Assembly: GCA_947565425.1 (NCBI GenBank)
Contig: CANOFW010000018.1
Coordinates: 1-63,731, forward strand
Origin: an uncultured Lachnospiraceae bacterium
GTDB lineage: Bacteria > Bacillota > Clostridia > Lachnospirales > Lachnospiraceae
Direction of reading: 5' to 3'
DNA length: 63,731 bases
Position 1 is the first letter of the stretch; the number at the start of each line of letters is the position of its first letter. The notes under the pieces were generated by a model, which was not told the DNA's origin, made no database searches, and worked only from the letters and a program-made list of their open reading frames with translations. Made by a program: the position numbers and the translations under genes. Positions 1 to 44,214 of this stretch are shown here, piece by piece.

Positions 1-52
1 GAGCAGCTGATTTGTAATCAGCAGGTTATCGGTTCGAGTCCGATCATCGGCT
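1..52 (+). tRNA. tRNA-Thr(TGT), 5' part outside window
   Basis: The window opens inside the D-arm. The anticodon stem CTGAT/ATCAG holds loop TTTGTAA, giving anticodon TGT (Thr, ACA codons). The T-arm GTTCGAGTC and the 3' acceptor strand CATCGGC with discriminator T are complete. First of five tRNAs on the same strand. Confidence 0.9.
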
Positions 53-72
53 TGTGTTGAGAGAATCAACTT

Positions 73-146
73 GGACCTTTAGCTCAGTTGGTTAGAGCAA
101 CCGGCTCATAACCGGTCGGTCCTGGGTTCGAGTCCCCGAAGGTCCA
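73..146 (+). tRNA. tRNA-Met(CAT), elongator type
   Basis: Cloverleaf with acceptor GGACCTT/AAGGTCC, anticodon loop CTCATAA (CAT) and T-loop GTTCGAGTC. The first acceptor pair is G-C and the anticodon stem is not the GGG/CCC type of initiators, so elongator Met is the best call. A CAT anticodon modified for Ile AUA reading cannot be excluded from sequence alone. Confidence 0.92.
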
Positions 147-167
147 TTTTTATTAGCTATGATATAT

Positions 168-241
168 GGCCTAGTGGCTCAGTTGGTTAGAGCGCCGCCC
201 TGTCACGGCGGAGGTCGAGGGTTCGAGTCCCTTCTGGGTCG
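168..241 (+). tRNA. tRNA-Asp(GTC)
   Basis: Acceptor GGCCTAG pairs with CTGGGTC including G-U pairs, discriminator G. The anticodon stem CCGCC/GGCGG carries loop CTGTCAC, anticodon GTC. T-arm GTTCGAGTC is intact. Confidence 0.95.
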
Positions 242-243
242 TT

Positions 244-412
244 TGTAGTGAGCCAAGCAAGCTTATCGCAGCTTCGGAGGCAGGGCAAGTGAGTGTATGT
301 CGGTTCTACGAACCGTCATCCCGCGCTAACGCTCGGGTAAGAATGAAAACCCCGAGTTTTAGCTAAGCGAGCTTGCCGCAACTCAGGGTTTTCGTTCTTA
401 ACACTCACTACA
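244..412. repeat. Palindromic multi-hairpin element between tRNA genes
   Basis: The stretch separating tRNA-Asp and tRNA-Val is bounded by the perfect 9-bp inverted repeat TGTAGTGAG (244-252) / CTCACTACA (404-412). Inside, 339-358 pairs with 380-399 as a 20-bp stem with two mismatches, and CCCG-GCTAACG-CGGG forms a smaller hairpin near 320-336. No coding capacity. It looks like a small repetitive element inserted in the tRNA cluster; a processing signal is an alternative. Confidence 0.6.
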
Positions 413-422
413 AGTAACGCGT

Positions 423-495
423 GGGATCTTAGCTCAGCTGGGAGAGCATCTGCCTTACAAGCAGAGGGTCACAGGTTCGAGCCCTGTAGGTCCCA
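423..495 (+). tRNA. tRNA-Val(TAC)
   Basis: Acceptor GGGATCT pairs with AGGTCCC, discriminator A. Anticodon stem TCTGC/GCAGA with loop CTTACAA gives TAC. T-arm GTTCGAGCC is intact. Confidence 0.95.
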
Positions 496-500
496 TTTGC

Positions 501-584
501 GCCGGCGTGGCGGAACTGGCAGACGCGCAGGACTTAAAATCCTGTGGTGGCGACATCGTACCGGTTCGATTCCGGTCGCCGGCA
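501..584 (+). tRNA. tRNA-Leu(TAA)
   Basis: Class II tRNA with a long variable arm (TGGTGGCGACATCGTA region). Acceptor GCCGGCG/CGCCGGC, anticodon stem CAGGA/TCCTG, loop CTTAAAA, anticodon TAA. Last tRNA of the cluster, followed directly by a terminator. Confidence 0.95.
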
Positions 585-595
585 GTTTTGGATTT

Positions 596-634
596 AAGGC
601 TTAACTCTTAATAAAGAGTTAGGTCTTTTTATTT
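596..634 (+). terminator. Intrinsic terminator of the tRNA cluster
   Basis: A 14-bp stem (AAGGCTTAACTCTT / AAGAGTTAGGTCTT with G-U pairs) around a 4-base loop is followed by a T-rich tract. Confidence 0.8.
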
Positions 635-719
635 TCGTCGTATTCGTAGGCTTGCCCACTTTGCGTTAATATGCTAGAATGTATGTGCTTGGAATAAATG
701 GAGAAAAGGAGATCTAATC

Positions 720-1220
720 ATGGCAAAAGTAGGAATTGTAATGGGTAGTGATTCAGATATGCCTATCATGGCGAAGGCGGCAGATGTATTAGAGGAGTTG
801 GGTATTGCTTATGAGATGAAGATTATTTCTGCACATAGGGAGCCGGATGTGTTTTTTGAATATGCAAAATCCGCAGAAGATAAGGGATTTAAGGTGATTA
901 TTGCTGGTGCTGGAATGGCAGCACATTTGCCAGGAATGTGTGCGGCAATCTTTCCGATGCCGGTAATTGGCATTCCTATGCATACCACTTCTCTGGGGGG
1001 AAGAGATTCTCTGTACTCGATTGTGCAGATGCCTTCAGGAATTCCGGTTGCCACCGTTGCGATTAACGGTGGTGCGAATGCAGCGCTTCTTGCTGCTAAG
1101 ATTCTTGCAACTTCAGACGAAGAATTGTTGAGTAGGTTAAAGGATTATTCCAATAAATTAAAAGAACAGGTAGAGGCAAAAGATGCTCATTTGCAGGAAG
1201 TTGGCTATAAGAATTATTAA
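720..1220 (+). CDS. purE: 5-(carboxyamino)imidazole ribonucleotide mutase (PurE)
   Basis: PurE moves the carboxyl group of N5-CAIR to C4, giving CAIR, in de novo purine synthesis in the cytoplasm. At 166 residues it has the usual class I length. The GSDSDMP loop (residues 9-15), SAHREP (37-42) and GAGMAAHLPG (about 63-72) are the substrate-binding motifs. AAAAGGAGATC precedes the ATG. It is first of a purE, purM, purN, purD run on one strand; about 160 bases without a gene separate it from purM, and that stretch shows no clear terminator. The other purine genes are not in the window. Confidence 0.96.
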   Translation: MAKVGIVMGSDSDMPIMAKAADVLEELGIAYEMKIISAHREPDVFFEYAKSAEDKGFKVIIAGAGMAAHLPGMCAAIFPMPVIGIPMHTTSLGGRDSLYSIVQMPSGIPVATVAINGGANAALLAAKILATSDEELLSRLKDYSNKLKEQVEAKDAHLQEVGYKNY

Positions 1221-1384
1221 TGATGCAGGGCTACTGATGTTATTGGATGGAATCATAGGGACAATTTAGATGATTCTGTTCGTGTTATAGTGAACGCATA
1301 AAATGAATGTGTTTCCTATAAGTAGAGTATTATGAAATTTTCAGCAGATTAGAAAATTAATTATTAGAATCAGGAGGAAAAATA

Positions 1385-2410
1385 ATGGATTACAAACATG
1401 CAGGTGTCGACATTGAGGCTGGTTATAAGTCTGTAGAATTGATGAAAAAGCATGTACAGCAGACGATGCGTCCAGAAGTACTAACAAATTTAGGCGGTTT
1501 CTCAGGTGCATTTTCTATGGAGAAATTTAAGGATATGGAAAAACCTACGCTGGTGTCAGGTACGGACGGAGTAGGAACGAAATTAAAACTTGCTTTTTTG
1601 CTGGACAAGCATAATACGATTGGAATTGACTGTGTGGCAATGTGTGTGAATGATATTGCCTGTGCCGGCGGGGAACCATTATTTTTCCTGGATTATATAG
1701 CCTGCGGTAAGAATTTCCCGGAAAAAATTGCGGAAATTGTCAGCGGCGTGGCGGATGGCTGCATCCAGAGTGATGCGGCATTGATTGGCGGGGAGACGGC
1801 GGAAATGCCTGGATTTTACCCGGAGGATGAATACGATTTGGCAGGATTTGCTGTGGGAGTGGTGGACGAGAAGGATATCATTACCGGAGCTGATTTGCAG
1901 GCCGGCGATGTGTTGATTGGCATGGCCAGTTCTGGCGTGCATTCCAATGGATTTTCCTTGGTGCGCAAGATTTTTAAGATGGAGAAAGAGACACTAAATA
2001 CATACCATGATGAGTTGGGTAAGACTTTGGGCGAGGCATTGCTTGCGCCCACGAAGATATATGTGAAAGCGCTGCGCGCTGTCAAAGAGGCGGGAGTGAG
2101 AATAAAAGCATGTAGCCATATCACAGGCGGCGGATTTTATGAAAATGTACCGCGTATGCTGCCGGAAGGAAAACATGCGGTGATTGAGAAGAATAGTTAT
2201 GAGGTTCCGGCAATTTTTAAGATGATGGCGAGAGAAGGCCAGGTAGAAGAGAAAATGATGTACAACACCTATAACATGGGTATCGGCATGGTGTTGGGCG
2301 TTAATGCTGCGGATGTAGAGAAGACAATAGAAGCTATTCGTGCGGCAGGAGAGACGGCGTATGTAATTGGCAAGGTGGAAGATGGAGAAAAAGGAGTAAC
2401 ATTATGCTAA
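1385..2410 (+). CDS. purM: Phosphoribosylformylglycinamidine cyclo-ligase (PurM, AIR synthetase)
   Basis: PurM closes the imidazole ring of FGAM with ATP to give AIR. At 341 residues it has the normal length. Visible motifs are [12 protein letters not shown] (nucleotide-binding loop), [34 protein letters not shown] and [29 protein letters not shown] precedes the ATG. The stop codon lies inside the start of purN (7-base overlap), so the two are probably translationally coupled. A divergent PurM domain fused to a helix-turn-helix domain occurs at 41276-42538; comparing the two shows this copy keeps all the standard motifs. Confidence 0.97.
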
Positions 2411-3036
2411 AGATTGTTGTCTGTGTGTCAGGTGGAGGGACGAATTTACAGGCGATTCTTGACTCTCTTGATAATGGTACAATCACCAACACGGAAGTTG
2501 CCGCGGTCATCAGCAATAATCCGAATGCTTATGCCTTAGAGCGTGCAAGAAAACGTAATATAGACGCAGTCTGTATTTCTCCCAAACAGTTTGAAAATCG
2601 AGACATTTTTAACAGGGCTTTTCTTGAGAAAGTAAATAGTTATCAGCCGGATTTGCTTGTGTTGGCAGGTTTTTTGGTGGTGATACCAGAAATGATGATA
2701 CAGGCGTACCGAAATCGGATTATCAATGTCCATCCGTCTTTGATTCCGTCCTTCTGCGGAACAGGTTATTATGGTTTAAAGGTTCATGAAGGGGCGTTAG
2801 AGCGCGGCGTCAAGGTTACCGGAGCGACCGTGCATTTTGTCGATGAGGGCACGGACACCGGGCCGATTATCCTTCAGCAGCCGGTGATGGTGGAAGCGGG
2901 AGATACGCCGGAGATTTTGCAACGGCGTGTGATGGAGCAGGCGGAATGGAAGATTCTTCCGCAGGCAATTGATTTGATTGCCAATGATAAGGTAACGGTA
3001 GTCAATGGCAGAGTGGTAGTTACGGATAATAGATGA
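2404..3036 (+). CDS. purN: Phosphoribosylglycinamide formyltransferase (PurN)
   Basis: PurN transfers a formyl group from 10-formyl-tetrahydrofolate to GAR. At 210 residues it fits the PurN family. The phosphate-binding loop [10 protein letters not shown] (about residues 9-18), the catalytic NVHPSLIP block (Asn and His of the active site) and [13 protein letters not shown] with the catalytic Asp are present. The start ATG overlaps the 3' end of purM, and GATGGAGAAAAAGGAG supplies the ribosome binding site inside purM. Confidence 0.96.
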
Positions 3037-3135
3037 GAAAAAGCATGCGTGTATTAATGAAAATATGCATTTATATGTGTGACGATTGAGCTGTTGCGAG
3101 AAGTTTTCGTATGCAGTTATGAAAAGGAGAACAGA

Positions 3136-4407
3136 ATGAAAGTATTGATTGTAGGAAGCGGCGGGCGTGAGCACGCAATAGCCGTTAGTGCGGCAAAGAG
3201 CCCTAAGGTAGATAAAATTTACTGTGCGCCGGGAAATGCGGGCATTGGGCAGATTGCGGAATGTGTGTCTATCGGCGCAATGGAGTTTGATAAATTAGTT
3301 TCTTTTGCCAAAGAGAAGGAAATAGATTTCACGATAATCGGTATGGATGATCCGCTGGTAGGCGGCGTTGTGGATGCTTTTGAGGCGGAGGGACTTACGG
3401 TATTTGGACCCAGGAAAAACGCGGCTATTTTGGAGGGCAGCAAAGCTTTTTCCAAAGATTTGATGAAAAAATACAAGATTCCTACGGCAGCGTATGAGAC
3501 CTTTGATGACCCGGCGAAGGCGCTTGTATATCTCGAAAATGCTAAAATGCCGATTGTGCTGAAAGCGGACGGCCTTGCATTAGGGAAGGGCGTGTTAATC
3601 TGTAAGACCTTGGAGGAGGCGAAAGCTGGCGTCAAGGAGATTATGGAGGATAAGAAGTTCGGTTCTGCCGGAAATCATATGGTAGTGGAAGAGTTTATGA
3701 CAGGGCGCGAAGTATCGGTACTTTCCTTTGTGGATGGCAAGACGATTAAGATTATGTCCTCTGCGCAGGATCATAAACGCGCCAAGGATGGCGATCAGGG
3801 CTTGAATACTGGCGGCATGGGTACATTTTCTCCCAGTCCATTCTACACTCCGGAAGTGGACGAGTTCTGTAAGAAATACATTTATCAGGCAACTGTGGAC
3901 GCTATGGCGGCGGAGGGCAGACCTTTTGTGGGTATTATCTTCTTCGGTTTGATGTTGACGGAGGACGGCCCCAAGGTATTGGAATACAATGCGCGTTTCG
4001 GTGACCCGGAGGCACAGGTGGTACTGCCGCGTATGAAAAATGATATGATGGAAGTAATGGAGGCATGCGTAGAGGGAAGATTGGATGAAATAGATTTGCA
4101 GTTTGAGGACAATGCTGCGGTCTGTGTCGTGTTGGCATCAGACGGTTATCCGGTGTCTTACGAGAAAGGATATGAGATTAAGGGCATGGATAAATTTGAT
4201 ACGCAGGACGGCTATTATTGTTTCCATGCGGGCACAGCGCTCAAAGATGGCAAAATTGTCACCAACGGTGGGCGCGTTCTGGGCATTACCGCCAAGGGAA
4301 ATGATTTAAAAGAAGCGCGTGCAAATGCATATAAGGCAACCGAGTGGGTTACCTTTGACAATAAGTATATGAGAAATGATATCGGAAAAGCGATTGATGA
4401 AGTGTGA
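3136..4407 (+). CDS. purD: Phosphoribosylamine-glycine ligase (PurD)
   Basis: PurD is an ATP-grasp enzyme joining phosphoribosylamine and glycine to GAR. The start ATG at 3136 is chosen because AAAAGGAGAACAGA stands before it and the protein then begins MKVLIVGSGGREHA, the family N-terminus; an in-frame GTG at 3079 would add 19 unrelated residues. At 423 residues the length is normal. GSAGNHMVVEEFMTGREVSV and LEYNARFGDPEAQVVLPR are the ATP-grasp metal and nucleotide motifs. Its 3' end overlaps the next gene. Confidence 0.96.
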   Translation: MKVLIVGSGGREHAIAVSAAKSPKVDKIYCAPGNAGIGQIAECVSIGAMEFDKLVSFAKEKEIDFTIIGMDDPLVGGVVDAFEAEGLTVFGPRKNAAILEGSKAFSKDLMKKYKIPTAAYETFDDPAKALVYLENAKMPIVLKADGLALGKGVLICKTLEEAKAGVKEIMEDKKFGSAGNHMVVEEFMTGREVSVLSFVDGKTIKIMSSAQDHKRAKDGDQGLNTGGMGTFSPSPFYTPEVDEFCKKYIYQATVDAMAAEGRPFVGIIFFGLMLTEDGPKVLEYNARFGDPEAQVVLPRMKNDMMEVMEACVEGRLDEIDLQFEDNAAVCVVLASDGYPVSYEKGYEIKGMDKFDTQDGYYCFHAGTALKDGKIVTNGGRVLGITAKGNDLKEARANAYKATEWVTFDNKYMRNDIGKAIDEV

Positions 4408-5485
4408 AATCAGACGAATCTCCATTTTTGATGAGTTTCAGTGCGCAGGTCAAAGATGTTCCATAAATTGCTGTCAGGGCTGGAAGATTCCCATCAATCA
4501 CGATGTATATATGAAATATCTGCATGAAAAAGGGCTTTTTGGCATAATGCTTCGGGCTTTTTTAAAAAGAGGCGAGCAGACTGCCTTTTTCCGAAGTCCA
4601 TTCGGCAGATGCCCGTTTTGGGGAAACGACCGGCTTTGCAGCATACAGAAAAAGCATGGGGAAGAATACATGCCTGCCGTGTGCGTACAATTTCCACGGC
4701 AGCTGTATAACCTCAGCTTTTTTTGCGAGGAAACATTGTATCTGGCTTGTCCAGAGGCGGTAAAACTTTTTTTGGAATGTGCCTATTCTGATAAGTCGTT
4801 TGAATATCATATAATAGAAAGTGTACCTGAGTATGAAGTCAATACAACGAATGACGATAAGAATTTTCTGGATTATCTGGTGAAATCAAGGGCAGAGTTG
4901 ACGGCAATGCTTAGGGACGGTATGAACTTTGACAGCATGGCAATCCTTGACTATGGAAGGGAAGCGCAGTCTGCCTGCCTTAACATGGCGACCGCAGGCG
5001 GTGGGCTTCCAAGTCCCAGAGATTATTTCTCTGAGGAATGTTATACAATTGGCATAGAGGAAATTAATAAATTGTTTTTTGAAGGATTTTTCCATCCCAA
5101 TTTGGGCATAATCTCTATGTTTCTCCATAAGCTTTGTAAAAAATATGTCAGGAAGATTGGTAAGTTAGGCAAACGCAATCCGAAAGCTGCCGACAAGAAA
5201 TTGTGTGCCTTACAGGATGACTTATATCAGAAACTTCCTGGGCTGGATAAGATGCTCAATCGGTATTTTGAGTATTATTTATTGACTAATTTTCTTGACA
5301 TCTATGAAGATTACAGTTTTACCAGGTGTTTGCTTTACGGAATTGTTAAGACGAAGATGGTGATGCTGTTTCTTGCACTCTATGCGGAAAATAAAGATAG
5401 CATAGATAGGGAAGAAATAGCAAAAATCATTGCTGTGTATGAGAGGAGGGCGCCTCAAATGAAGGACGCCCTGAAAAAATTATAG
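4397..5485 (+). CDS. FliB-like lysine-N-methylase family protein
   Basis: The N-terminal cysteine pattern CAGQRCSINCCQGW (about residues 14-27) followed by a second cysteine set (CPFWGNDRLC) is the metal-binding signature of the flagellin lysine-N-methylase (FliB) family, which methylates lysines of flagellin in bacteria such as Salmonella. The length of 362 residues agrees with the family. The ATG at 4397 is preferred over 4376 because it gives a family-like N-terminus and has GGAAAAG six bases upstream; both overlap the purD end. No flagellar genes lie nearby, so the substrate is unknown. Confidence 0.75.
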   Translation: MKCEIRRISIFDEFQCAGQRCSINCCQGWKIPINHDVYMKYLHEKGLFGIMLRAFLKRGEQTAFFRSPFGRCPFWGNDRLCSIQKKHGEEYMPAVCVQFPRQLYNLSFFCEETLYLACPEAVKLFLECAYSDKSFEYHIIESVPEYEVNTTNDDKNFLDYLVKSRAELTAMLRDGMNFDSMAILDYGREAQSACLNMATAGGGLPSPRDYFSEECYTIGIEEINKLFFEGFFHPNLGIISMFLHKLCKKYVRKIGKLGKRNPKAADKKLCALQDDLYQKLPGLDKMLNRYFEYYLLTNFLDIYEDYSFTRCLLYGIVKTKMVMLFLALYAENKDSIDREEIAKIIAVYERRAPQMKDALKKL

Positions 5486-40898: not shown

Positions 40899-41010
40899 AT
40901 GACAACGATTGAGACAGTAAAATGAAACGATGGTGTGGAAATTCCGGTCTATGGATTTGGCACATATCAGATTCCGGCTGATGGCAGCACTTATCGAGCG
41001 GTCAGAGGGA
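40899..41010 (+). pseudogene. N-terminal remnant of an aldo/keto reductase
   Basis: Reading from ATG 40899 gives MTTIETVK, a TGA, then NDGVEIPVYGFGTYQIPADG, which is the N-terminus of aldo/keto reductases (usually LNNGVEIPVLGFGTYQI). The frame stops again within about 15 codons. The remaining bases up to 41275 show no gene apart from a short hairpin GAGAA-N8-TTCTC near 41210. Confidence 0.6.
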
Positions 41011-41275
41011 AGATATTTTGAATTTCAATGCTAAGTATCAAGTTTCCGATTTGGGATTGAAAGTTATCGAACCAATGGTATCTATGGGATAGTGAAGTGG
41101 TTTGGGCTATCACAGAAATCTGGATGAAATGTAAAGGAGTGATTTTCCAGAATTGTATTCTCAACCATCAGTTGAAAAATGCATGTAAAATACAAATAGA
41201 CGGTTATTGAGAACAGATTTATTCTCTGCTAAGATAAAGACAAAGTTGCATAAGTCATTTATAGCGGAGGTGGAT

Positions 41276-42538
41276 ATGTTAGATAATCTGAAAATGGGGA
41301 GATTTATTTGCGAGCAGCGCAGACGCAGGTCTATGACTCAGCAGCAGTTAGCAGACGAATTGGGCATAACGTTTCAGGCAGTTTCTAAATGGGAAAATGG
41401 GATCGTATTTCCCAATATTGAAATTTTGCCGGAATTGTCGCGAATCTTGCAGGTAACGGTGGATGATTTGCTGAGAGCAGATATCAGTGATAAAGAATCG
41501 CTTTCTTACGGCAAGGCAGGAGTGGACATCGCCTATTCCGATGCATTGAAAAAGGATATGGCAAAATTGCTGGTAAGTGAGGATGCGCGCGTTCTCAACG
41601 GTGTGGGGCCTTTTGCCTCTCTGTATGATATAGAGTTTGAGGAGATGAAGAAACCTATCTTAATATTGAAATCGGAGGAGCCAGGCTCGAAGCAGAAGTT
41701 AGCGATGGAATACGGCTATACAGAATCTATCTGTCATGACATGGTGAATCATCTGGTAAATGATATCATTGTTATGGGCGCAAAGCCGCTGGCAGTGCTC
41801 GATACGATTGTGTGTGGGAAGGCGGAAAAAGATACGATTAACACTTTTGTCAAGGGGATTGCTGCTGCTTGCCGTGAAAATGATTGTTCTCTAGTCGGAG
41901 GCGAGACTTCCATACAGCCCCAGGTCGTGCAGGAAGGAACTTATATACTTACATCTACGATTGTGGGTATTGCGGATAAATCTCATGTGATTGACGGTTC
42001 AGGCGTTGAAGAAGATGATATTGTCTTGGCAATTGCCTCGAACGGCCTGCATACCAATGGTTATTCATTGGTAAGGTTATTGATGGACAGATACCCGGAA
42101 ATTAAGCTGGAGAGAATTGAGGGACTGACGTTTGTGGAACAGATTATGAAGCCGCATCTTCCCTATTATAAATGTCTGCGGGAATTTTTCGGTAAGGATA
42201 TCTATCATGGACTTGCCCATATCACGGGCGGCGGTATCGAGGGAAACTTGTGCCGGATTATACCGGATGGCCTTTGTGCTTCGATTGATTTGTCCTGCAT
42301 TGAAATCCTGCCGGTATTTCAGTTTATTCAGGAAAAAGGCAATATCAGCGACCGTGAAATGTTGGCAACGTTTAACTGCGGCGTGGGTATGTGCGTGGTT
42401 GTGTCGCCCCAATATGCAAAGCGGGTGCAGGCGCATATCGGGCGTTTTTATCCTTGCTATCCAATCGGCAAAATTAAGCGGGGAGAGCGGAAAGTACTTT
42501 TCCACAATGATTGGGGTGTCAAAAGCGCCTTTTTATAG
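41276..42538 (+). CDS. XRE helix-turn-helix fused to a PurM-like domain
   Basis: 420 residues. Residues 8-65 are an XRE DNA-binding domain (MGRFICEQRRRRSMTQQQLA, ITFQAVSKWENGIVFPNI). From about residue 77 to the end runs a PurM (AIR synthetase) domain: GKAGVDIAYSDALKKDM, LVGGETSIQP, ASNGLHTNGYSLVR, HITGGGIEGNLCRIIPDG, FNCGVGMCVVV. The glycine loop GTDGVGTK of true PurM is LKSEEPGSK here, so catalysis may be lost or changed. GGAGGTGGAT precedes ATG 41276. It is the second PurM homologue in the window. I infer a regulator sensing a purine intermediate or nucleotide; a fused enzyme is the alternative. Confidence 0.85.
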   Translation: MLDNLKMGRFICEQRRRRSMTQQQLADELGITFQAVSKWENGIVFPNIEILPELSRILQVTVDDLLRADISDKESLSYGKAGVDIAYSDALKKDMAKLLVSEDARVLNGVGPFASLYDIEFEEMKKPILILKSEEPGSKQKLAMEYGYTESICHDMVNHLVNDIIVMGAKPLAVLDTIVCGKAEKDTINTFVKGIAAACRENDCSLVGGETSIQPQVVQEGTYILTSTIVGIADKSHVIDGSGVEEDDIVLAIASNGLHTNGYSLVRLLMDRYPEIKLERIEGLTFVEQIMKPHLPYYKCLREFFGKDIYHGLAHITGGGIEGNLCRIIPDGLCASIDLSCIEILPVFQFIQEKGNISDREMLATFNCGVGMCVVVSPQYAKRVQAHIGRFYPCYPIGKIKRGERKVLFHNDWGVKSAFL

Positions 42539-42581
42539 AATTTAACAAATTTTCATTTTGAAGGTTCATTTTAAAATATAG

Positions 42582-42620
42582 AGCTAAGCCATAAAACTTA
42601 TGGTTTAGTTCTTTTTTTTG
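42582..42620 (+). terminator. Terminator after the HTH-PurM gene
   Basis: AGCTAAGCCATAA pairs with TTATGGTTTAGTT around AAC, followed by CTTTTTTTT. Confidence 0.85.
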
Positions 42621-42807: not shown

Positions 42808-43491
42808 ATGGTGAAAAAGATGAATGAAACGATTGTTCTGTTGGAACATATCTCCAAAAGCTTTCCTGGCGTCAAAGCTCTGGATAATGTTCATTTTGAA
42901 CTCCGTTCTGGGGAAGTGATGGCGCTGTTAGGAGAAAACGGAGCTGGGAAAAGCACCCTGATGAAAATTCTAAGCGGCGTTTATACCAGGGATGAAGGGA
43001 GTATGCAGATTTTTGGTAAGGAATGCGGAAACTTGACGCCTAAGCAGGCGCAGGAAATGGGAGTCGCAATCATACATCAGGAATTGAATATGTGCCGACA
43101 TCTATCCATTGCAGAAAACATGTTTCTGGGAAGAGAAAAGCGGAAAGGGATCGTTCTTTCCGATCAGGAAATGGAGAAGGAAGCAAAGGCTGTCCTGAAT
43201 GAATTGAAGATTGATTTGGATCCCAAGCAGGTGGTAGGCGATCTTCCGGTATCCAAGCAGCAAATGGTAGAAATTGCCAAGGCCCTTTCCTTTCAGGCGA
43301 AGATTTTGATTATGGATGAGCCGACTTCCGCTTTGACAGCAAAAGAAATTGACGATTTGTTCCGAATTATCAAAGAGCTAAAGGCGAAGGGATGTGGAAT
43401 CGTTTATATTTCTCATGGGAAGAATTTCATAGAATATAACAGGGAGGATTTTGAGGGATTGCCGGACAGTGTGCCATGGAAGTCACTATAA
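42808..43491 (+). pseudogene. Truncated sugar ABC transporter ATPase (RbsA/MglA type)
   Basis: 227 residues against about 500 in the family. The first ATPase half is intact up to the switch His: GENGAGKST (42-50), IIHQELNMCRHLSIAENMFL, a signature region LPVSKQQMVEIAKAL and LIMDEPTSALT. Directly behind YISH (203) the sequence changes to an unrelated 24-residue tail (GKNFIEYNREDFEGLPDSVP...). The second ATPase half, the permease and the binding protein are missing. An internal deletion that joined two genes is the simplest reading. A protein could still be made (ribosome binding site AAAGGGAAAGATG) but would not form a normal transporter. Confidence 0.8.
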
Positions 43492-43533
43492 CAATTGTTA
43501 CAGAAATCAATTCAAAGAGAAAAGGAGAAGAAA

Positions 43534-44214
43534 ATGAAACGTTCAGAGATTAATAAAGCATTAAAGGAAATGGAAGCTATGATTCAGGAGCATAAATTTG
43601 CACTGCCGCCGTTTTGTAATTTTACACCCGAGGAGTGGAAGGAAAAGAATCATGAGTACGATGAAATCCGGGACAATATGTTGGGGTGGGATATTACGGA
43701 TTATGGTTTGGGAAAATTTGACGAAGTGGGATTTTCGCTGATTACCATTCGCAATGGAAATCCCAAAATGGACAAGTATACCAAGACTTATGCAGAAAAG
43801 CTTTTATATATCAAGGAGGGGCAAATGGCTCCCATGCATTTTCACTGGATGAAAATGGAGGATATTATTAACCGGGGCGGCGGCAACGTGCTGATTCGTG
43901 TGTATAACTCCACGGAGGACGGGAAGTTTGCCGACACGGATGTAACCGTGCATTGTGATGGCAGGGAATTTACCGTTCCGGCAGGCACTCAGGTGCGCCT
44001 TTGTCCAGGGGAGAGCATTACCATTTACCAGGGAATGTATCATGATTTTGAGTTGGAGGAAGGCACAGGACCAGTACTGTTAGGAGAAGTCTCTATGTGC
44101 AATGACGATGAAAATGACAATCGTTTTTATGAGCCGATTGGAAGGTTCCCTGCCATTGAGGAAGATGAAGAGCCTTACCGACTGTTGTGTAACGAGTATC
44201 CCAAGGCAGAATAG
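43534..44214 (+). CDS. D-lyxose/D-mannose isomerase, cupin family
   Basis: 226 residues of the D-lyxose ketol-isomerase family (YdaE/sigma-B-regulated type), converting D-lyxose to D-xylulose and also D-mannose to D-fructose. Cupin metal ligands are visible in MAPMHFHWMKMEDIINRGGG (His, His, Glu) and GMYHDFELEEG (His). Start ATG 43534 has AAAAGGAGAAGAAA. It follows the truncated transporter and precedes a cupin and a PfkB kinase, a small sugar-use operon. Confidence 0.88.
   Translation: MKRSEINKALKEMEAMIQEHKFALPPFCNFTPEEWKEKNHEYDEIRDNMLGWDITDYGLGKFDEVGFSLITIRNGNPKMDKYTKTYAEKLLYIKEGQMAPMHFHWMKMEDIINRGGGNVLIRVYNSTEDGKFADTDVTVHCDGREFTVPAGTQVRLCPGESITIYQGMYHDFELEEGTGPVLLGEVSMCNDDENDNRFYEPIGRFPAIEEDEEPYRLLCNEYPKAE

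Follow-up and report, generated by a model that had tools for sequence, protein, structure and literature searches.

Why should a bacterium that has a normal gene for AIR synthetase (PurM) carry a further PurM homologue joined to a DNA-binding domain, and is the fused protein an enzyme, a regulator or both? The question is raised by a gene in a 63,731-nucleotide stretch of DNA from an uncultured Lachnospiraceae bacterium (contig CANOFW010000018.1), referred to here as the window (Table 1). A sequence-only reading had described one continuous frame of 420 residues with a good ribosome binding site, joining an XRE helix-turn-helix (HTH) domain to a PurM homologue that retains the GGET, HTNGYSLVR and HITGGG blocks and has LKSEEPGSK in place of SGTDGVGTK, in a genome with a normal purM at position 1385, and had proposed that an enzyme fold had become the ligand sensor of a regulator. 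The gene is as described: HTH_3 scored 47.4 bits (Pfam cut-off 23), AIRS and AIRS_C matched residues 151–233 and 246–409, the NCBIfam purM model TIGR00878 spanned residues 77–402 with 271.8 bits, above its equivalog cut-off of 236.35, GCGGAGGTGGAT lies directly before the ATG, and the same NCBIfam model recognised the normal purM. A third gene of this genome with an AIRS domain was found on another contig. The mechanical list of open reading frames gives a longer alternative starting at a TTG (41207), but the ATG is the likelier start, because a predicted −10 box (41230–41235) lies inside the longer frame. AlphaFold2, with a 53-row family alignment, predicted the fusion with a mean pLDDT of 89.8 and a pTM of 0.78, a weak linker (62 for the block of residues 71–80) and HTH helices at residues 4–17, 22–29, 33–40, 48–58 and 62–67; the top PDB match found by Foldseek was E. 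coli PurM (1cli, E 5.9e-36).

Table 1. Features of the HTH-PurM locus, by position in the window
Feature	Position	Strand	Remarks
Normal purM of the genome (for comparison, outside the system)	1385..2410	+	TIGR00878, 431.9 bits
Operator 1 (predicted), CTCAACCATCAGTTGAA	41160..41176	.	palindrome TTCAAC-N5-GTTGAA, one mismatch
Possible weaker operator 2, degenerate	41190..41206	.	inferred; ends in conserved GGTTA abutting the −35 box
GGTTATTG element overlapping the −35 box	41202..41209	+	RGTTATTG-like
Predicted promoter TTGAGA-17-TAAGAT, extended −10 (TG)	41207..41235	+	by match to consensus
Ribosome binding site region GCGGAGGTGGAT	41264..41275	+	from sequence; adjoins the ATG
HTH-PurM fusion ORF	41276..42538	+	420 aa from ATG
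XRE (HTH_3) DNA-binding domain	41276..41479	+	residues 1–68; Pfam HTH_3 13–65, E 1.9e-12
PurM (AIR synthetase) domain, EEPGSK type	41504..42538	+	residues 77–420; TIGR00878, Foldseek
KSEEPGSK loop, replaces GTDGVGTK	41669..41692	+	residues 132–139
I213 codon, replaces Glu of GGETxE	41912..41914	+	residue counts in alignment
Predicted intrinsic terminator downstream of the gene	42580..42612	+	15-pair stem, T run

A collection with one genome per species (84,980 species) was scanned for relatives. The search peptides matched 574 stretches, 314 of which encode relatives, and the best 80 of these 314, most of them assigned by record title to Lachnospiraceae or other Clostridia, were analysed. The HTH and PurM domains share a single frame in 79 of the 80, the remaining gene being broken off at the end of its contig; the rows share ancestry, so that counts across relatives do not represent independent events. 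A tree built from 106 PurM domains placed the 77 fused rows in one clade (100/100), and these together with the HTH-less rows of the EEPGSK type (84 rows in all) were separated from 22 canonical PurM sequences (100/100). A long-branch warning attaches to this tree for rows including L114, L115, L116 and L125, most of them HTH-less, and two rows were left untrimmed; L056, L060, L087 and L098 (deleted, truncated or cut) and L005–L009 were excluded from both the tree and the residue counts given below. The ratio dN/dS was 0.037–0.13 over the PurM part in 13 close, partly overlapping pairs (a 14th was left out for its length) and 0–0.25 over the HTH in the 12 of those pairs for which it was computable; by this measure both domains are under purifying selection.

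The sequence-only reading had allowed for a sequencing error that merges two genes. Such an artefact is excluded by the single frame of 79 of the 80 best relatives together with dN/dS values well below 1. The broader idea of a decaying or artefactual merger draws on in-frame deletions in the genes L010/L056, L012, L013 and L087 and on a premature stop in L060, but with a single clade, a shared architecture and dN/dS far below 1 it is already refuted, and we regard its probability as negligible. The internal deletions in the four fusion genes (L010/L056, L012, L013/L129 and L087) remove roughly 50–75 residues, are all in frame and each join short similar stretches; L012 lacks the HTH besides, and the deletion in L087 sits in an isolate genome, that of Lacrimispora saccharolytica An817. 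The fusion gene is thus dispensable in places, given four genes with internal deletions and one with a premature stop. In the family of the window, a fused-type gene was found in 9 of 250 genomes, the source genome counted; one of the nine ends at a contig edge and three are internally deleted, one of these three also lacking the HTH, and one further genome of the 250, from the same genus as the window, has an HTH-less relative. A profile of the loop region (E 1e-24) matched in 6 of 398 genomes of the phylum, the matches being the gene of the window, three HTH-less genes of the EEPGSK type and two ordinary PurM genes.

The DNA before the fusion gene carries a module that is new here: a palindrome, TTCAAC-N5-GTTGAA, situated about 41 bp (39–43) before an RGTTATTG element, which is followed by a sigma-A-like promoter. 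The RGTTATTG-like element was found in 67 of 79 upstream regions (shuffles: mean 1.8, maximum 5), and 13 of 80 regions lack the promoter element or room for it. Among the 67 regions holding the element, the palindrome was present with at most two mismatches in 59 and with at most three in 65, as against 0 and 9 of 1332 control windows taken upstream of the same fusion genes. The exact core, TCAAC-N5-GTTGA, occurred in 44 of 79 regions, and 200 single-base shuffles gave a mean of 0.025 and a maximum of 1. These upstream counts exclude L098 and L114–L116, and the two counts over 79 regions also exclude L073, which has too short a stretch of upstream DNA. Thirty-six modules were aligned, of which 26 remain below 80% identity. 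The information profile showed a conserved −10 box (TATnAT) and, in the 26 less-related modules, TC 11 bp before GTT, the window having A for that T; the weak −35 box begins with the TTG of RGTTATTG. In the window, operator 1 would be centred about −74 and operator 2 about −43 from the predicted transcription start. In genes whose HTH is of the GTLP type, with a shorter loop, the right half-site is TAGA rather than TTGA in 10 of the 13 with an operator, and outside this type TAGA was seen only in L068. Half-site variation may therefore track the HTH subclade, an association that is suggestive only, since it follows the tree and involves few events. Upstream of the operator, at about 40899–41010, the window holds a stop-containing remnant (NDGVEIPVYGFGTYQIP) that by eye resembles the beginning of an aldo/keto reductase.

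The occurrence of the module elsewhere was surveyed with the pattern TCAAC-N5-GTTGA-N18..40-GTTATTG and, as a control, the reversed pattern. In 60 genomes of the fusion set there were 29 sites in 28 genomes (control 0), 26 of them upstream of an HTH-PurM gene by comparison of coordinates by eye; the other three head another gene (G097), have no gene assigned (G691) or show odd spacing (G678). In G658 and G670 the site lies about 0.25–0.3 kb before the gene, and 31 to 32 of the 60 genomes are without an exact copy of the module. A search of 397 family genomes, partly the same as the 60, gave 13 sites in 12 genomes (control 0): five before HTH-PurM genes, one within a coding sequence and seven before genes for HTH-TehB. 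In these last (L198, L211, L212, L213, L214, L216 and L217, with two copies in genome G221), an XRE HTH is fused to a TehB-like SAM methyltransferase. PF03848 gave 74.5 and 62.6 bits (cut-off 20.4) in the two of the seven proteins that were scanned, both of which fall below the NCBIfam tehB cut-offs. The HTH-TehB genes have a spacing of 39–42 bp and a promoter like that of HTH-PurM, except that L198 lacks a −10 box fitting the pattern. The module is missing from four bacterial HTH-less PurM relatives, in which the best palindrome has 3–5 mismatches and no RGTTATTG was seen. Since two unrelated enzyme fusions share the module and four HTH-less relatives are without it, the module, judged from these sequences, accompanies the HTH and not the enzyme. 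The pattern also matched 102 viral stretches; none among the 80 read precedes such an HTH, and these matches were taken as chance.

Conceivably, the palindrome belongs to another regulator, and the fusion uses its HTH on genes elsewhere, the pur regulon for instance. Similar recognition helices are widespread among XRE domains, and binding of the palindrome by the fusion is itself predicted from sequence; such an arrangement nevertheless seems very improbable, as the module is shared by two unrelated HTH-enzyme fusions and missing from four HTH-less relatives, and the pur genes searched give it no support. The sequence-only reading had proposed binding assays on pur promoters, and of an action on these there was no sign: five pur-bearing stretches totalling 61 kb (window positions 1–5000, L320 (purL), L321, L322 and L323) contained no site with at most one mismatch, and the four sites with two mismatches are about the chance rate. 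Within the fusion loci, only one other ORF has such an HTH.

We therefore lean, with moderate confidence, towards a one-component transcription factor of its own gene, in which the HTH would read the palindrome and the PurM domain would dimerise and bind a ligand. The fusion itself, its single clade, the constraint on it, the operator-promoter module and the sharing of that module with HTH-TehB were computed here. Against this reading stand the upstream regions and genomes that lack the element or an exact module, and the fusion genes with deletions or a premature stop. In the proposed working, the XRE HTH would bind the TTCAAC-N5-GTTGAA palindrome that precedes the promoter of its gene, and the sites near −74 and perhaps −43 would stimulate transcription from this promoter, whose −35 box is weak, giving positive autoregulation. 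Lambda cI acts as an activator of its own gene at the promoter PRM, and positive autoregulation is our leading guess because the sites beside the weak −35 box resemble PRM; judged from position, it stands about level with repression. The PurM domain would supply the dimer interface and a pocket in which ATP and probably also FGAM, or a purine intermediate related to it, would bind, and the ligand there may set the switch, catalysis having perhaps been lost or changed upon fusion with the replacement of E by I in GGETxE. The known PurM enzyme is a homodimer according to the available text of one study (PMC5919458).

Whether the PurM half is a sensor or an enzyme depends on its residues, and here the HTH-less relatives are informative. 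Residues E134, E135, P136 and S138 of the loop are invariant in the 77 fused and 7 HTH-less rows, whereas the 22 canonical rows have D, G, V or C, and T at these positions; the KxEEPGSK loop is common to all seven HTH-less rows. In three genomes that are 94–96% complete (G289, G331 and G455), an HTH-less gene with the loop KTEEPGSK or KSEEPGSK is the only PurM match found; beyond it, TIGR00878 at E 0.001 matched at 23 and 30 bits in two of these genomes and gave nothing more in the third. PurD and PurN score over cut-off in all three, and the FGAR-AT linker of PurL is present. By eye, the surroundings of purD are purE-purB-purF-purN-purC-purD-like in two of these genomes, the third having a pur cluster of another make-up, and no purM was seen among the ORFs of these clusters. 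The sole PurM genes (L123, L124 and L125) lie away from pur clusters (with L136, L137 and L138), and L123 and L124 adjoin genes with a flagellar look by eye. An HTH-less PurM of the EEPGSK type, with about 60% identity in the loop region, is also found in three large viral contigs (L114, L115 and L116). As HTH-less relatives are the sole PurM found beside PurL, PurN and PurD, the altered loop is not the mark of a dead enzyme, and a KxEEPGSK loop probably permits AIR synthesis; these relatives suggest that the nucleotide loop of PurM can vary with the pathway retained. The earlier proposal of an enzyme fold serving as the sensor of a regulator thus has support as to a DNA-binding regulator with an enzyme-derived domain, for which the conserved operator and its presence before an unrelated HTH-enzyme fusion argue, and falls as to the loop as evidence.

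A better clue than the loop, on the alignment, is I213. All 22 canonical and all 7 HTH-less rows keep the Glu of GGETxE, and its position is hydrophobic in all 77 fused rows (Ile in 75, Leu in one and Val in one), the fusion of the window having no acidic residue there. The conservation of this acidic residue suggests that it matters for catalysis. Ninety-one positions were invariant in canonical PurM (at least 21 of 22 rows), a set that is partly family-specific since 20 of these rows come from one family, and 56 of them are kept in at least 95% of the fused rows. Just three positions combine retention in 6 or more of the 7 HTH-less rows with loss in most fused rows: the loop Thr (Ser or Ala), a Lys (mostly Asn, although the fusion of the window retains Lys) and the Glu of GGETxE (Ile). 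The change from Glu to Ile in fused rows, with Glu kept in HTH-less rows, points to an active-site change that arrived together with the fusion. The active-site residues of E. coli PurM include D94, H190, H247, T249 and R259, as named in the available portions of two papers (PMC3261824, PMC5919458), and D65 in that of the former (PMC3261824). Mapped by alignment and motif, the equivalents of the first five are kept in 77 of 77 fused rows, and at the position of D65 every one of the 77 fused and 7 HTH-less rows has Glu (E134). The fused domain could therefore still be active, given that the named residues are kept and that the D65-to-E change is common to HTH-less proteins that are probably enzymes; I213 argues against full AIR synthesis and the retained residues argue for it.

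These retained residues, the full-length match to the purM model over the equivalog cut-off, and the HTH-less relatives serving as the only PurM beside PurD, PurN and PurL are what would be expected of a bifunctional trigger enzyme, which, like PutA or BirA, would combine catalysis, here as AIR synthetase, with control of transcription, here of its own gene, substrate occupancy switching it from the DNA-bound to the enzyme form. We hold this as a tentative alternative. It has against it the hydrophobic residue in all fused rows, at a position that is Asp even in a third PurM type, and the copy number of PurM. All ten genomes of the first family set (nine fused-type, one HTH-less) also carry a canonical purM. 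In 50 further fusion genomes, drawn from 50 of the 80 fusion loci, canonical purM was present in 36, and 11 of the 14 without it have a longer third type of PurM (102–114 bits for whole-length matches; three were matched as two pieces and one in part). This type, called Bacteroides-type by resemblance, is about 400 aa long with GGETAD and HADGAGTK motifs (L152, L153 and L155), the Asp having been read in three sequences. The last three genomes have no second PurM, and with no PurN over cut-off either, they are uninformative on whether the fusion can be the sole PurM, a role for which no case was found among the 14. Another PurM is thus present in 47 of the 50 genomes (for one of them, the evidence is a partial hit), so the fusion is probably not needed as an enzyme of purine synthesis. 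A sensing role for the PurM domain of an autoregulator, as we favour, accommodates both the spare copy and I213.

The surroundings of the gene were examined by clustering the ORFs of 84 loci (80 genome, 3 viral and the window; many of them short), and no conserved neighbours emerged. The largest cluster covered 27 loci with positions scattered from −9.3 to +7.0 kb, and clusters of 12 loci look, by eye, like the ribosomal proteins L13 and S9; a conserved partner gene was accordingly rejected, none being fixed beside the fusion. Among the 20 of 61 plasmid records and the 20 of 200 phage records listed, there was no HTH fusion, the tblastn matches beginning at query residue 43 or later; as all of these matches are without the HTH part, a phage or plasmid origin was set aside. 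Anti-phage defence was likewise discarded, PADLOC matches being confined to the first 97 residues of the fusion (HTH region). Downstream in the window, an ORF for the ATP-binding protein of an ABC transporter (42808–43491) has only 227 aa, its last residues looking unrelated by eye, and is followed by a D-lyxose isomerase gene (43495–44214; PF07385, 343.5 bits).

With a predicted promoter and terminator of its own and no fixed partner, the gene might encode a self-induced spare AIR synthetase, a resistant isozyme used when the normal PurM is inhibited, and HTH-TehB, headed by the same module, might likewise be a self-induced detoxifying methyltransferase. This seems improbable: I213 replaces the Glu of GGETxE, the substrates of PurM and TehB have no link, and we know of no PurM inhibitor. 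Starting again from an autoregulator with a sensing domain, the presence of the same site before two unrelated HTH-enzyme fusions suggests a reusable route to a self-controlling enzyme gene. A stronger version, which we consider possible but doubtful, is that of a portable cassette (XRE HTH, operator pair and weak promoter) joined to unrelated enzymes in Lachnospiraceae and their relatives, each product being self-activating in the manner of cI and reading its substrate; if true, there would be a class of regulators in which the fold of a purine-pathway enzyme senses FGAM or ATP. In practice, because the fusion exceeds the NCBI equivalog cut-off, pipelines relying on that cut-off would probably annotate it as an enzyme of purine synthesis, and a likely regulator would then be entered among the enzymes of reconstructed pathways. 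What the fusion controls can be approached directly through the conserved operator.

In the literature searched, which leaves subscription papers mostly outside, we came across neither a description of HTH-PurM or XRE-TehB fusions nor one of a PurM fold in a regulator or of a single operator cassette common to two unrelated enzyme fusions. With PurM itself (TIGR00878; 1cli, 5vk4), the fusion shares the fold, the full length and most of the named active-site residues, and it adds the HTH, the KSEEPGSK nucleotide loop, Ile for the Glu of GGETxE and its own operator. An enzyme that doubles as a transcription regulator is a known principle: in PutA of Salmonella and BirA of E. coli, as the available text of one article has it, enzyme and transcriptional repressor are united in one protein that targets a related operon (PMC6978683). 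In contrast, the only target seen for the fusion is its own gene, and its enzyme activity and DNA binding are deduced from sequence. The domains and pathways of PutA and BirA also differ from those of HTH-PurM. PurR of Bacillus subtilis combines an HTH with an enzyme-derived domain, of phosphoribosyltransferase type, that senses a purine-pathway metabolite, and it controls pur operons, whereas HTH-PurM has a PurM domain and no pur-gene operator in the five stretches searched. In its working, the fusion resembles a trigger enzyme or a PurR-type sensor, as a candidate for either. Lambda cI and P22 C2 have in common with the fusion an XRE-type HTH, for which the PDB matches included P22 C2 chains, and a two-fold operator (a predicted site in the case of the fusion); their site lies near −42 beside their own promoter, and they have no enzyme domain. 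HTH-TehB shares the HTH_3 domain, the operator, a near-equal spacing and the promoter with HTH-PurM, and has a SAM methyltransferase domain where the latter has PurM.
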